A stretch of 64,000 nucleotides of DNA from Saccharomonospora viridis DSM 43017 (GTDB lineage Bacteria > Actinomycetota > Actinomycetes > Mycobacteriales > Pseudonocardiaceae), in assembly GCF_000023865.1 (NCBI RefSeq), contig NC_013159.1, positions 2,568,001-2,632,000 on the forward strand, in the 5' to 3' direction. Positions within the stretch are counted from its first letter, which is position 1. Every line of letters starts with the position of its first letter. Of this stretch, positions 1-11,434 are shown in pieces. The notes below the pieces were generated by a model that searched no databases, had not been told where the DNA came from, and was given only the letters and a program-made list of their open reading frames with translations. The position numbers and the translations under genes were made by a program.

Positions 1-59
1 CGCGCATGGCCCGATCCCTGCCGCGTATCGCCACAGCCGGCGACAACTGATCACCTGCC

Positions 60-328
60 GGATGAGTGCATCCCATCTGACCCGGCGTAGCCCGGTCACG
101 CTGTGTCAAGGGACAGGGCAACTTCCTCGTTGACCGGCGGCTGACGTCGCCGGGCTTGCCCCCTTGGCGCGGCGTGATAACCCTCGGGGGCAGCCGGGTG
201 GGACACCTACCGGACCACCAACGAACCGAAACATGCGTGCACGACCCCGGCCATCCTGGAGATCTGCCCGCCCGGCGATGACATCCTCTTCTCCCCTTGA
301 AAAACAAGAGAAGAAAGTTTGAACACAC
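60..328. repeat. Left copy of a diverged repeat with a long stem-loop (sister element)
   Basis: This region matches 1636-2050 at roughly 80% by eye, apart from a block present only in the second copy. Its first half folds into a long imperfect hairpin: arms near 66-112 and 160-207 are complementary. The tail (an AAGAGAAGAAAG tract and a TTTGAACACAC run near 305-328) is also shared. It lies just beyond the 3' end of the decayed HAD gene, as the other copy lies just beyond the 3' end of the epimerase gene, so it appears to be a standard part of this element family. Its function is unknown. Confidence 0.75.
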
Positions 329-353
329 ACTCCGCGCGGTGTGGTTGTCAGAC

Positions 354-930
354 TTACCGCTGCGGGATGAGCCGAGTCAGTTCGCTGATGATGGCATCAG
401 GGTGGTGCGCGGCGAGGCGTTCGTGTTTGCCGGGTTTGTTGGCATAAGCCACCACTGGTGTGCCAGCAGCACGTGCGGCGTGGATATCGGTGACGGAGTC
501 ACCGACCATCAGACATTCGCCGGGGCGTGTGCCATGAGTGGTATGGCCTGCTGCAGTAGATGTGGATTCGGCTTCAGTCTCGTGATGTCGGCGGCGGTTC
601 GTGCTGACACGCCAGCGACGTAGTGGTCCAGCCCAGCCTGGCGTAGATAGGTTTCGATTGCGACGGTGGAGTTGTTGCTGACGATCGTGACAATCCTGCC
701 TTCGCTGGTGAGGTAGTCCAGCACCGCAGGAAGCCCCGGGGCCTGTGGAGCTTGGCTGACCGCTTCCACTCCCGCGCCACGCTCGTCCACAAGCTGTCGA
801 ACCACATCCGCGACTGCTTGACGTAATGCGACGCCATCGTCTCGTCATCAGCATCGACACTGTGGTGGAACAACACCGTGTCCTCGCCCATCAAGTCCCA
901 AACCGACGTGGGCGTGCCGTTCAGCTTCAC
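354..930 (-). pseudogene. Frameshifted HAD-family hydrolase (cargo of decayed sister element)
   Basis: A HAD-superfamily phosphatase-like protein is spread over three reading frames. A GTG at 930 with a good GGAGG just upstream begins a short N-terminal piece. The middle piece (about 845-512) contains VSNNSTVAIETYL, a typical HAD motif II region, and LKPNPHLL (motif III lysine). The C-terminal piece (about 530-354) contains GDSVTDIHAARAAG, the motif IV acidic loop. The last shift sits at a C-run near 530, where one base would restore the frame. No DxD nucleophile motif is visible in the N-terminal piece, so that part is also damaged. HAD hydrolases are common passengers in actinomycete integrative elements. 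The gene is very probably non-functional. Confidence 0.75.
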
Positions 931-1001
931 CCTCCTATAACCGAAGGGCACCTCAGAATTCTTGATCAGACAAAGCATGAACAACGGCACCACGCATTCC
1001 C

Positions 1002-1172
1002 GCCATCGCGGCTGGAGCCGACGTCAAGGTGCTACAGCTCATGCTCGGTCATGCTGACGCGGCGATGACCCTCAACATCTACGGGCACCTGTTCCCCGAT
1101 CGCCTCGACGACGTGGCCGGCACGCTCGACGCCCGGCGACGGGAGACGTTGGCGAAGCGATCGATGGCGTGA
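1002..1172 (+). pseudogene. 3' remnant of a tyrosine integrase
   Basis: Fifty-six codons ending in TGA encode the C-terminal catalytic patch of a tyrosine recombinase, with the HMLGHADAAMTLNIYGHLF-type region and its catalytic His and Tyr. It is nearly identical in protein to the end of the intact integrase at 10049-11257, but the N-terminal 85% is missing. It lies directly next to the left att repeat in the same orientation as the intact gene relative to its own att. I infer it is the leftover end of an older element that used the same tRNA site. Confidence 0.9.
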
Positions 1173-1186
1173 CGTTCGGCGACCCA

Positions 1187-1204
1187 ATGTGACATGAATG
1201 TGTC
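1187..1204 (+). promoter_or_regulatory. Candidate integrase arm sites of the decayed element
   Basis: Two ATGTGAC/ATGTGTC heptamers lie 11 bp apart, between the integrase remnant and the left att repeat. They occupy the same relative place as the ATGTTGG pairs at 1416-1433 and 11272-11289, but with a different sequence. Position and period suggest arm-type recombinase binding sites. This is inference. Confidence 0.4.
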
Positions 1205-1239
1205 ATGCTCCGGCCTGCGCACGTGTCCGGAGACGACCA

Positions 1240-9874: not shown

Positions 9875-10047
9875 GCTCGAAACTCTGGAGCATCCGGGAT
9901 CTCGCCGAGTTCCTCGGCATCCCCGTCAACACCCTCTACCAATGGCGCAGCAAAGGCTACGGACCCCAAGGCCGGCGCATCGGCAAATACGTCCGCTACC
10001 GCCCCGAAGACGTCCACGCCTGGATCGAACAACAGGAGGGATGCTGA
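9871..10047 (+). CDS. xis: Excisionase (HTH, MerR-like fold)
   Basis: This 58-residue protein has a winged-helix DNA-binding motif: LWSIRDLAEFLGIPVNTLYQ, then W and a basic wing with GRRIGKYVRY. It ends EDVHAWIEQQ. This is the usual excisionase of AICEs. It directs the integrase toward excision. The ATG overlaps the Rep stop (ATGA), with AAAGGAG upstream. The integrase starts two bases after its stop, so the pair is co-translated. Confidence 0.88.
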   Translation: MSSKLWSIRDLAEFLGIPVNTLYQWRSKGYGPQGRRIGKYVRYRPEDVHAWIEQQEGC

Positions 10048-10048
10048 C

Positions 10049-11257
10049 GTGGCGCGAGTCTGGATCTACGACCGGACCAAGAAGGCTAAGTACCGTGAAG
10101 CGGTCAAGAAGGCCAAAAGCCTTGGTCGTAGGCCGCCGGCACGTTGGGAGGTCATGTACTACGACCAGACCGGCAAGCTGCGCTCCGAGGTTGCTGCCAC
10201 CAAGGCTCGGGCAGAGCAACGGCGTACCGAGCTGGAAGCTGCACTTTCGACAGACACCTATGTTGACCCTACAACGGCGAAGGTGTCGTTCGCTGAAGTG
10301 GCTGACAAGTGGCTTGAGTCTCGGCATGATCTTCGGCCGTCGACTTGGTGGAAGTACCGCGGTCTGCTGGACACTCATGTCAACGTGCGATGGGGTGATG
10401 TGCAGCTTCGTGCGATCAGGAGCGAGGACATCGCTGCTTGGCTGGGATCGTTGTTGAAGTCGCGGACTGAGGGTGGCAGCGGTCTTGGTCCTTCGCAGGC
10501 CCGACATGCGTTCCGGGTGTTGTCGATGGTGCTCGATTGGTGCGTTCCTGCGAAGCTACTGCGGAACCCTGCTGAGGGGGTCAAGCTGCCGGTTCGCCCG
10601 GAAACGGAACATGTCTATTTGAGCTTCGAGCAGGTCGAGCGTCTGGCTAATGCAGCGGGAGACCTCCGCACGAAGTACGGCCGTCCGACTGCCTCGGCCT
10701 CCGTCAACAGGGCGCTGATCCTGCTGTTGGCTTACACCGGTCTCCGATGGGGTGAAGCTGCAGCGCTCCGAGTGGGGCGTGTCGATTTGGTCAAGCGGCG
10801 AATACGGGTCGTGAGCACGTTTTACGAGCTCAATGGGGTGCAGCATGAGGGTCCGCCGAAGAGCGGCAAGCATCGGACGGTGGCGATTCCACCGTCGTTG
10901 GTGCCGGAGTTGAAACAGGTCATTGGGGGCCGTGGGGATCACGAGCTGGTGTTCACTACAGCGCGCGGGGCGTCGTTACGGGCGAACAACTGGCGGGTGC
11001 GGGAGTTCAACCCCGCTGTGAAGTTGGCCAAGCTCGATGGGCTCGGTCTCACTCCGCACAAGCTGCGACATACGGCCGCATCACTCGCCATCGCAGCGGG
11101 GGCAGATGTGAAAGTTCTTCAACACATGCTCGGTCATGCCGACGCGGCGATGACGCTCAACATCTACGGGCACCTGTTCCCCGACCGGCTCGACGAGGTC
11201 GCTGACACGCTCGATGTTCGACGGCGCGAGGTACTGGGCAAGCCCTCGGCAAGCTGA
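10049..11257 (+). CDS. int: Tyrosine integrase
   Basis: This 402-residue site-specific recombinase integrates and excises the element at tRNA-Pro. It has an N-terminal arm-binding region, a core-binding SAM-like domain (about residues 78-170) and a catalytic domain with Arg233 (TGLRWGE), Lys near 274, His337-x-x-Arg340-His (HKLRHT), His363 (LGHAD) and Tyr373 (NIYGHLF). The length is normal and the gene is intact. It starts at GTG 10049. It lies 68 bp from the right att repeat, and its C-terminus is nearly identical to the remnant at 1002-1172. Confidence 0.95.
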   Translation: MARVWIYDRTKKAKYREAVKKAKSLGRRPPARWEVMYYDQTGKLRSEVAATKARAEQRRTELEAALSTDTYVDPTTAKVSFAEVADKWLESRHDLRPSTWWKYRGLLDTHVNVRWGDVQLRAIRSEDIAAWLGSLLKSRTEGGSGLGPSQARHAFRVLSMVLDWCVPAKLLRNPAEGVKLPVRPETEHVYLSFEQVERLANAAGDLRTKYGRPTASASVNRALILLLAYTGLRWGEAAALRVGRVDLVKRRIRVVSTFYELNGVQHEGPPKSGKHRTVAIPPSLVPELKQVIGGRGDHELVFTTARGASLRANNWRVREFNPAVKLAKLDGLGLTPHKLRHTAASLAIAAGADVKVLQHMLGHADAAMTLNIYGHLFPDRLDEVADTLDVRRREVLGKPSAS

Positions 11258-11271
11258 GAGCCTCGCTCGGA

Positions 11272-11289
11272 ATGTTGGATAAATGTTGG
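11272..11289 (+). promoter_or_regulatory. Candidate integrase arm sites, right end
   Basis: Two ATGTTGG heptamers lie 11 bp apart, just after the integrase stop. They match the pair at 1416-1433 in sequence, spacing and orientation. They are probably arm-type binding sites for integrase or excisionase. Confidence 0.55.
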
Positions 11290-11324
11290 TCGCGGGCGGG
11301 TCAGCGCCAGCTTCTGAATGACCG

Positions 11325-11397
11325 AGGGGCCGTCTACCTGCGTGGACGGCCCCTGTTCTGTCGGGCTGACAGGATTTGAACCTGCGACCCCTTGACC
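11325..11397. repeat. Right attachment site (73-bp direct repeat within tRNA-Pro)
   Basis: This is identical to 1240-1312. It covers the tRNA-Pro terminator hairpin and the 3' half of the tRNA up to the anticodon region. Here it is fused to the 5' half, so the tRNA gene stays intact, as in most tRNA-integrating elements. Confidence 0.95.
11326..11353 (-). terminator. Hairpin downstream of tRNA-Pro
   Basis: GGGGCCGTC pairs perfectly with GACGGCCCC across a 10-base loop. It lies eight bases beyond the tRNA 3' end on the minus strand and could also stop integrase transcripts from the plus strand. It is duplicated at 1241-1268 with the att repeat. Confidence 0.7.
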
Positions 11398-11434
11398 CCC
11401 AGTCAAGTGCGCTACCAAACTGCGCCACAGCCCG
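11361..11434 (-). tRNA. tRNA-Pro (anticodon GGG)
   Basis: Read on the minus strand, this gives a 74-base cloverleaf: a CGGGCTG/CAGCCCG acceptor stem, a D-arm, an anticodon stem CTTGA/TCAAG with loop CTGGGGG (anticodon GGG), and a T-arm with GTTCAAATC. CCA is not encoded. It is the integration target of the AICE, which supplies the 3' half. Confidence 0.95.

Follow-up and report, generated by a model that had tools for sequence, protein, structure and literature searches.

The first 11,434 bases of the stretch analysed here (the window: 64,000 nucleotides of Saccharomonospora viridis DSM 43017, bases 2568001-2632000 of its single 4,308,349-bp chromosome, G000; other genomes and loci also carry G and L labels) appear to hold two related actinomycete integrative and conjugative elements (AICEs) at one proline tRNA gene, tRNA-Pro(GGG). 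The complete AICE beside the tRNA is named A, and the outer remnant AICE is named B. The features located were the following.

65-205, plus strand: hairpin SL1 of B (97 bits with covariance model R1; among the model's 12 training sequences)
294-336, plus strand: AACAAGAGAAGAAAGTTTGAACAC block 3' of the stem-loop of B (sequence comparison)
360-781, minus strand: HAD-hydrolase pseudogene of B (whole homologues at L067:2118-2777 and L073:11178-11840)
763-990, minus strand: 3' end (~80 codons) of an upstream regulator gene of B (homologue of L067:2774-3670)
985-990, no strand: putative junction of a deletion of ~8 kb (CGGCAC common to both edges in L067)
985-1172, plus strand: integrase C-terminal end of B (sequence comparison)
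1173-1234, plus strand: right-end tail of B, containing GTGACATGAATGTGTCATG (tail matches in relatives)
1235-1312, plus strand: inner attachment (att) site, a terminator-like hairpin (1235-1274) and a 38-bp tRNA-Pro core (1275-1312) (direct-repeat comparison)
1641-1781, plus strand: covarying hairpin SL1 of A (covariance model and covariation)
1871-2047, plus strand: second G+C-rich hairpin SL2 and CTTGAACAAG...GAACAC motif (2020-2047) of A (sequence comparison)
2064-2990, minus strand: NAD-dependent epimerase/dehydratase, cargo of A (family search)
3000-3857, minus strand: helix-turn-helix regulator of A (family search)
4008-4376, plus strand: SCO3933-like regulatory protein of A (45.8 bits, under the cut-off of 80)
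5397-6788, plus strand: FtsK/SpoIIIE-type transfer protein Tra of A (PF01580, E 4.9e-10)
8522-9874, plus strand: RepSA rolling-circle replication initiator of A (PF20199, E 8.7e-157)
9871-10047, plus strand: candidate excisionase Xis of A, 58 aa (named by eye, no family search)
10049-11257, plus strand: tyrosine integrase of A (PF00589; 62 bp from the repeat)
11320-11397, plus strand: att site at the tRNA, 38-bp core 11360-11397 (direct-repeat comparison)
11360-11434, minus strand: tRNA-Pro(GGG), the integration target (tRNA call; Rfam also matches tRNA)

Element A is a complete AICE of 10,085 bp at the 3' end of tRNA-Pro(GGG), with integrase, RepSA, an FtsK-type Tra and a candidate Xis. These genes lie between both att copies, as an earlier interpretation made from the letters of this DNA (the sequence-only reading) had proposed. 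A shows the features of the pSAM2-type AICEs, with an integrase beside att, RepSA, a single FtsK/SpoIIIE-type Tra and flanking direct repeats, one of them inside the 3' end of the tRNA. Its RepSA scored 487 bits against the NCBIfam RepSA model, under the cut-off of 700, and its Tra only 20.8 bits against TraB, with a cut-off of 800. The direct repeats 1235-1312 and 11320-11397 are identical at 77 of 78 bases. Only 38 bp of each are derived from the tRNA, the other 40 bp being a terminator-like hairpin, and the 73-bp shared repeat formerly taken for the att site has to be shortened to this core. To judge from its sequence, recombination between 1275-1312 and 11360-11397 would free A as a circle of 10,085 bp.

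To the left of the inner att, B exhibits in order the hairpin region, the HAD pseudogene, the regulator end, the integrase C-terminus, a 62-bp tail and att. The stem-loop region, already noticed as matching in both elements, is 85% identical over 232 nt (69-295 and about 1644-1870). The integrase C-terminal repeat (1001-1163 and 11086-11248) showed 80% DNA identity over 163 nt and 79% protein identity, with 83% over the best 145 nt, so that "near-identical", the word first used for this integrase end, is too strong. Against the integrases of A. sacchari and A. pithecellobii, the B integrase end showed 85-86% identity over 138-139 nt and is slightly nearer to these Amycolatopsis integrases than to that of A; two separate acquisitions are therefore probable. 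The length of the shared repeats, their same order and the 10,085-bp spacing of two of them are far beyond chance. The order itself (stem-loop, cargo, integrase end, att) is common to both elements as had been stated, but the cargos are not homologous, an NAD-epimerase in A and a HAD protein in B. We found also that the cargo gene of B, previously described as frameshifted, does carry a frameshift near 518-542, but that its damage had been understated: ~81 N-terminal codons are missing and the regulator end follows at 763-990. The tail of B matched over 47-48 nt in G001, G003 and G009, beside att, and elsewhere among the loci searched mostly over 20-34 nt.

The AICE of Amycolatopsis pithecellobii (G241/G297; loci L067 and L170) has the order stem-loops, 219-aa HAD gene, regulator, tra, rep, int and att. 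Since this is the order of B with the HAD and regulator genes whole, B would have lost about 8 kb, or about 8.0 kb in an L067-like layout (L067 3022 to 11017). The homology to the regulator ends at 990 and that to the integrase starts at 981-1001 according to the relative, and the two L067 edges overlap in CGGCAC at 985-990. This layout gives good support to the loss of the outer element's core by internal deletion, as first proposed, and refines the junction to 985-990, which fits a deletion between short CGGCAC repeats. The A. pithecellobii integrase is itself split by a frameshift (overlapping frames L067 10001-10657 and 10390-11205), and the AICE therefore models the layout and not a proven working element; otherwise complete, it may be inactive, or the frameshift may be an assembly error.

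The reading of a pair of related AICEs sharing one site, with the outer partner gutted by internal deletion, is well supported by the L067/L170 layout and by comparable stacks elsewhere (L159, L160 and L079). The arrangement is very probably the product of site-specific tandem accretion with decay, B and then A having entered at one tRNA-Pro(GGG) att and B having been gutted. The two elements have the same att specificity, lie side by side and have the internal att in common. The tyrosine integrase of B would have inserted it into the 38 bp at the 3' end of tRNA-Pro(GGG); A, whose integrase is related and has the same specificity, would then have recombined at that att and come to lie between the tRNA and B. 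A stretch of about 8 kb with Tra, Rep and most of the integrase would have gone from B, probably through the CGGCAC repeats, as well as part of the HAD gene, and the outer att of B would no longer be recognisable. With one recognisable att, B should be unable to leave, alone or with A, barring a cryptic att at its outer end.

The relatives were compared in three sets: 12 genomes of the genus, S. viridis included, with ten tRNA-Pro loci (G001-G009 and G011); nine high-scoring genomes taken from among the matches listed in 297 genomes of the family; and 16 outer att flanks (tblastn at E 1e-4 for the integrase). The aconitase-side sequence to the right of the tRNA was present in 10 of the 12 genus genomes, G011 matching around the tRNA only and G010 weakly, in tRNA-like stretches. 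In G003 a whole HAD reading frame lies directly at the tRNA, along with the AACAAGAG block and the tail; G001 has a short integrase end, the tail and att there. G009 contains two stacked remnants in reverse order, the outer one A-like (88% identical to A across 127 nt) and the inner one B-like (83% identical to B across 53 nt). At the seven other tRNA-Pro loci of the genus, any AICE matches next to the tRNA were short or weak, save in G002, where an att copy lies 13.4 kb left of the tRNA with stem-loop pieces in between. Elsewhere in the family, G025 and G043 (Prauserella isguenensis, also G298) showed in order a decayed integrase end, att, a complete AICE and tRNA-Pro(GGG). Stem-loop remnants end just left of an att in G241 and G103. 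In G100 and G051 the AICE is complete, and the adjoining 3-4 kb on its outer side showed no remnant. AICE genes lie at the tRNA in G068, together with one additional piece of tail; in G041 two att copies enclose an integrase with a frameshift, and G020 has an integrase end only. Among the 16 outer att flanks, a related integrase end abuts att in one (G199) and a distant integrase (29-34%) was found in three (G238, G079 and G102); 12 showed no integrase at the E value given. At least four other genomes (G009, G025, G043 and G199) therefore contain comparable stacks, and in this sample, chosen by score, stacking is recurrent and not universal. In G103, we observed also two att copies 2.4 kb apart (L162 8398-11188), with stem-loop or tail pieces before each and no integrase; ARAGORN found no tRNA in this stretch, which is apparently a stack of two remnants in which no complete element survives.

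Several results weigh against the accretion of A onto an older B. The 100 kb to the left yielded no third copy of the 38-bp core (blastn there and in the window; Smith-Waterman), an outcome that the sequence-only reading had named as one half of its own refutation, and an outer att just left of base 1, where it had been expected, is not supported; in the whole chromosome, the other clear copies of the core lie only at tRNA-Pro(TGG) or 8.3 kb from it, and the next-best matches are of 20-40 nt with E 0.003 or worse. In the 16 outer att sites of relatives, the 38-bp core alone matched in 10 and 41 to 75 bp matched in six, so that the search for a third 73-bp copy suggested earlier was the wrong test and could miss a genuine outermost att. 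An outer att of the outer element is thus lacking, which we read as erosion. A trace of a left end, G000:2567063-2567091 (within 2567054-2567158), lies ~1 kb outside the window and matches the left end of A at 25 of 29 bases; it is weak, with a genome-wide E of 0.018 and a Smith-Waterman score of 46 against 41 at the best unrelated place. Between this trace and B sits a frameshifted comB-like (2-phosphosulfolactate phosphatase) pseudogene (L009 19202-19942), and no comB-like gene was found in six related AICE loci (L159, L160, L161, L165, L166 and L170). The flank left of B showed no synteny with the genus relatives until about -8.5 kb. Finally, the types are in reverse order in G009, where the inner remnant is short (53 nt compared).

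The distance from the trace to the stem-loop, 1.0 kb, falls inside the range of the corresponding distances from att to stem-loop, which are 0.8 kb in L159, 1.3 in L160, 1.4 in both L166 and L170, 0.2 in L165 and 0.3 in A; by a narrow preference, we would place the left end of B at this trace. The trace and the comB-like pseudogene (about -0.94 to -0.05 kb) might instead belong to a third, older remnant, which would make more than two layers. A 57-nt piece of G009, 81% like the start of this stretch and joined to another integrase end (L079:11761-11888), speaks for such a layer, which we nevertheless consider rather improbable, with no integrase end or att between the comB-like stretch and the stem-loop of B in S. 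viridis and a comB-like gene in G022 (L171) in a 12-kb stretch that showed no AICE part. Elements of the cis-mobilizable (CIME) class keep both att sites. B does not belong to this class, the att at 1275-1312 being the only one found beside it. The variable region may reach further left, as the 7-8 kb next to B on that side (G000 about 2559500-2567000), with MFS, TetR and SDR genes, have no syntenic counterpart at this site in the genus relatives.

The order of arrival is inferred from where right ends of each type are found. Tandem arrays can grow at either att, and the outer element could be the younger one if it had integrated at the outer att of A (1275-1312), not at the tRNA, and then decayed fast. 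The reversed types of G009 are in line with this, and position is for that reason no proof of age. However, in G001 and G003 a B-like right end directly adjoins tRNA-Pro, the 12-15 kb examined there contained no A-type element, and the decay is far greater in B than in A, so that we regard a younger B as unlikely. Because similar right-end remnants lie at the tRNA in these two genomes, the outer element being the older is plausible here and not a rule; of the initial proposal that an older sister was pushed outward by a newer element, the related stacked elements stand and the general equation of inner with newer does not.

That B arose as a partial duplication of A's own right end would account for the integrase end, tail and att being in the same order. 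It is nonetheless extremely improbable, given 17-20% DNA divergence from A, a different tail and cargo, and equal or closer relatives in Amycolatopsis. The HAD gene and integrase end could also be resident chromosome beside tRNA-Pro, belonging to no element, and a whole HAD reading frame does lie about 170 bp from tRNA-Pro in G003 with no integrase. The relatives gave no clear case of such a resident segment: the HAD gene of G003 and the integrase end of G001 lie beside the tRNA with no complete element nearby, yet AICE pieces flank both, the AACAAGAG block and the tail in the case of the G003 HAD gene. In A. pithecellobii the HAD homologue occupies the corresponding position within an AICE, which makes a resident origin very improbable. 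Under accretion with decay, tRNA-Pro(GGG) in the Pseudonocardiaceae appears as a repeatedly used AICE landing site, with a clear case here and parallels in several genera, where older elements were gutted while another remains complete. Even after loss of the outer att, decayed layers can be recognised by their right-end pieces (integrase C-terminus, tail, terminator and core).

The hairpin region kept in both elements was then analysed. Covariation was measured in alignment A2, made of 12 distinct copies with each locus taken once (L060 and L160 are one Prauserella locus). SL1 has 37 pairs, 18 of them with changes on both sides, and 91.6% of the cells are paired, a value falling to 36-47% when the partner is slid. 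In shuffled alignments, the observed value was reached in none of 500 for four of five measures and in 27 of 500 for the fifth. On the 3' side of SL1 comes a second G+C-rich hairpin and then a block CTTGAACAAG...CTGAACAC of 28 bases. This block, searched with up to 2 mismatches in 100 family genomes, gave 55 sites in 42 genomes, and the pattern read backwards, used as control, gave none. At least 33 of the 55 sites lie 4.9-11.8 kb upstream of RepSA, all 33 on the same strand; this is a lower bound, counting RepSA among the matches listed within 20 kb. The other 22 sites have no RepSA among these matches, some being in genomes with no RepSA match at all. The hairpin model matched 17 of 30 motif loci, three of them training loci (G043, G051 and G103), and the other 13 gave no match at E 0.01. 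With stricter filters, two of 148 genomes of the class matched, S. viridis and G330, the latter with no RepSA match. Rfam, run on bases 1-12000 with E up to 1, matched the tRNA only and not the stem-loops; no tandem repeats marking a possible cis-acting locus of transfer (clt) were found by TRF at score 40; and in the plasmid collection the stem-loop region matched a single record, over a short stretch of a Streptosporangium plasmid.

The two-part structure of the Pseudonocardiaceae AICEs, a ~140-nt covarying hairpin followed by a second hairpin and CTTGA(A/T)(C/G)AAG with a conserved CTGAACAC end, might tentatively be read as a rolling-circle origin region lying 5-12 kb from rep and readable even in remnants, with the second hairpin and CTTGA as double-strand origin and the large hairpin as single-strand origin, a proposal to which we give less than even weight. 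The nick of the pC194 type is CTTGATA. Together with this, the assignment of pSAM2 to the pC194 family, based in part on its nick site according to excerpts of PMC3218068, makes an origin role our leading guess. The nick site of pJV1, CCTAGGTAAA, lies just upstream of rep in the excerpts available of PMC13346255; it is unlike the present motif in sequence and near rep, which speaks against an origin. The main rival is a conserved RNA instead of a DNA origin. The structure was found neither in Rfam nor in the limited literature consulted, and the words "stem-loop" and "hairpin" are absent from the excerpts of PMC3218068. The stem-loop/CTTGA block can serve to mark AICEs and what is left of them, and is a testable candidate for an origin.

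Deletion and tandem accretion reportedly shaped the ICESt1-related elements, as the title of a 2004 article by Pavlovic et al. has it. Island evolution there would likewise combine both processes, in an integrative and conjugative element of Streptococcus, whereas B keeps one att. AICE accretion at one tRNA with decayed members is already known from the available parts of PMC3218068 and PMC9513070. In a Streptomyces population, successive AICEs occupy one tRNA-Arg, a conserved remnant that lacks traB lies between the left-hand direct repeats, and decayed AICEs were recognised only through comparison (PMC9513070, in part). The S. viridis locus resembles these in the stacking at one tRNA with a conserved remnant and differs in host family, in tRNA and in B having no recognisable outer repeat. 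The tandem AICEs Fean5518/Fean5534 in tRNA-Lys and Sav3708/Sav3728 in tRNA-Arg likewise are pairs at one tRNA gene; Fean5518 and Fean5534 excise singly and together, unlike the S. viridis pair in that one partner here is a remnant (PMC3218068, in part). The excerpts from the main text of that paper, supplements aside, do not name Saccharomonospora, and no paper in the literature searched combined Saccharomonospora viridis with AICE terms. The newer aspect is the covarying hairpin and CTTGA block kept in both elements.

Two other sites of the S. viridis chromosome exhibited related traces. A 33-bp copy of the tRNA-Pro 3' end, 97% identical, forms a direct repeat 8.3 kb downstream of tRNA-Pro(TGG) (L015 5444-5518 and 13791-13823; G000 about 1235444-1243823), and this stretch is a possible second integrated element. 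Beside tRNA-Leu(TAA) (L016 10704-10780), where the hairpin model gave no match, pieces resembling an AICE left end and the stem-loop (7925-8003 and 10037-10103) are possibly another decayed AICE.

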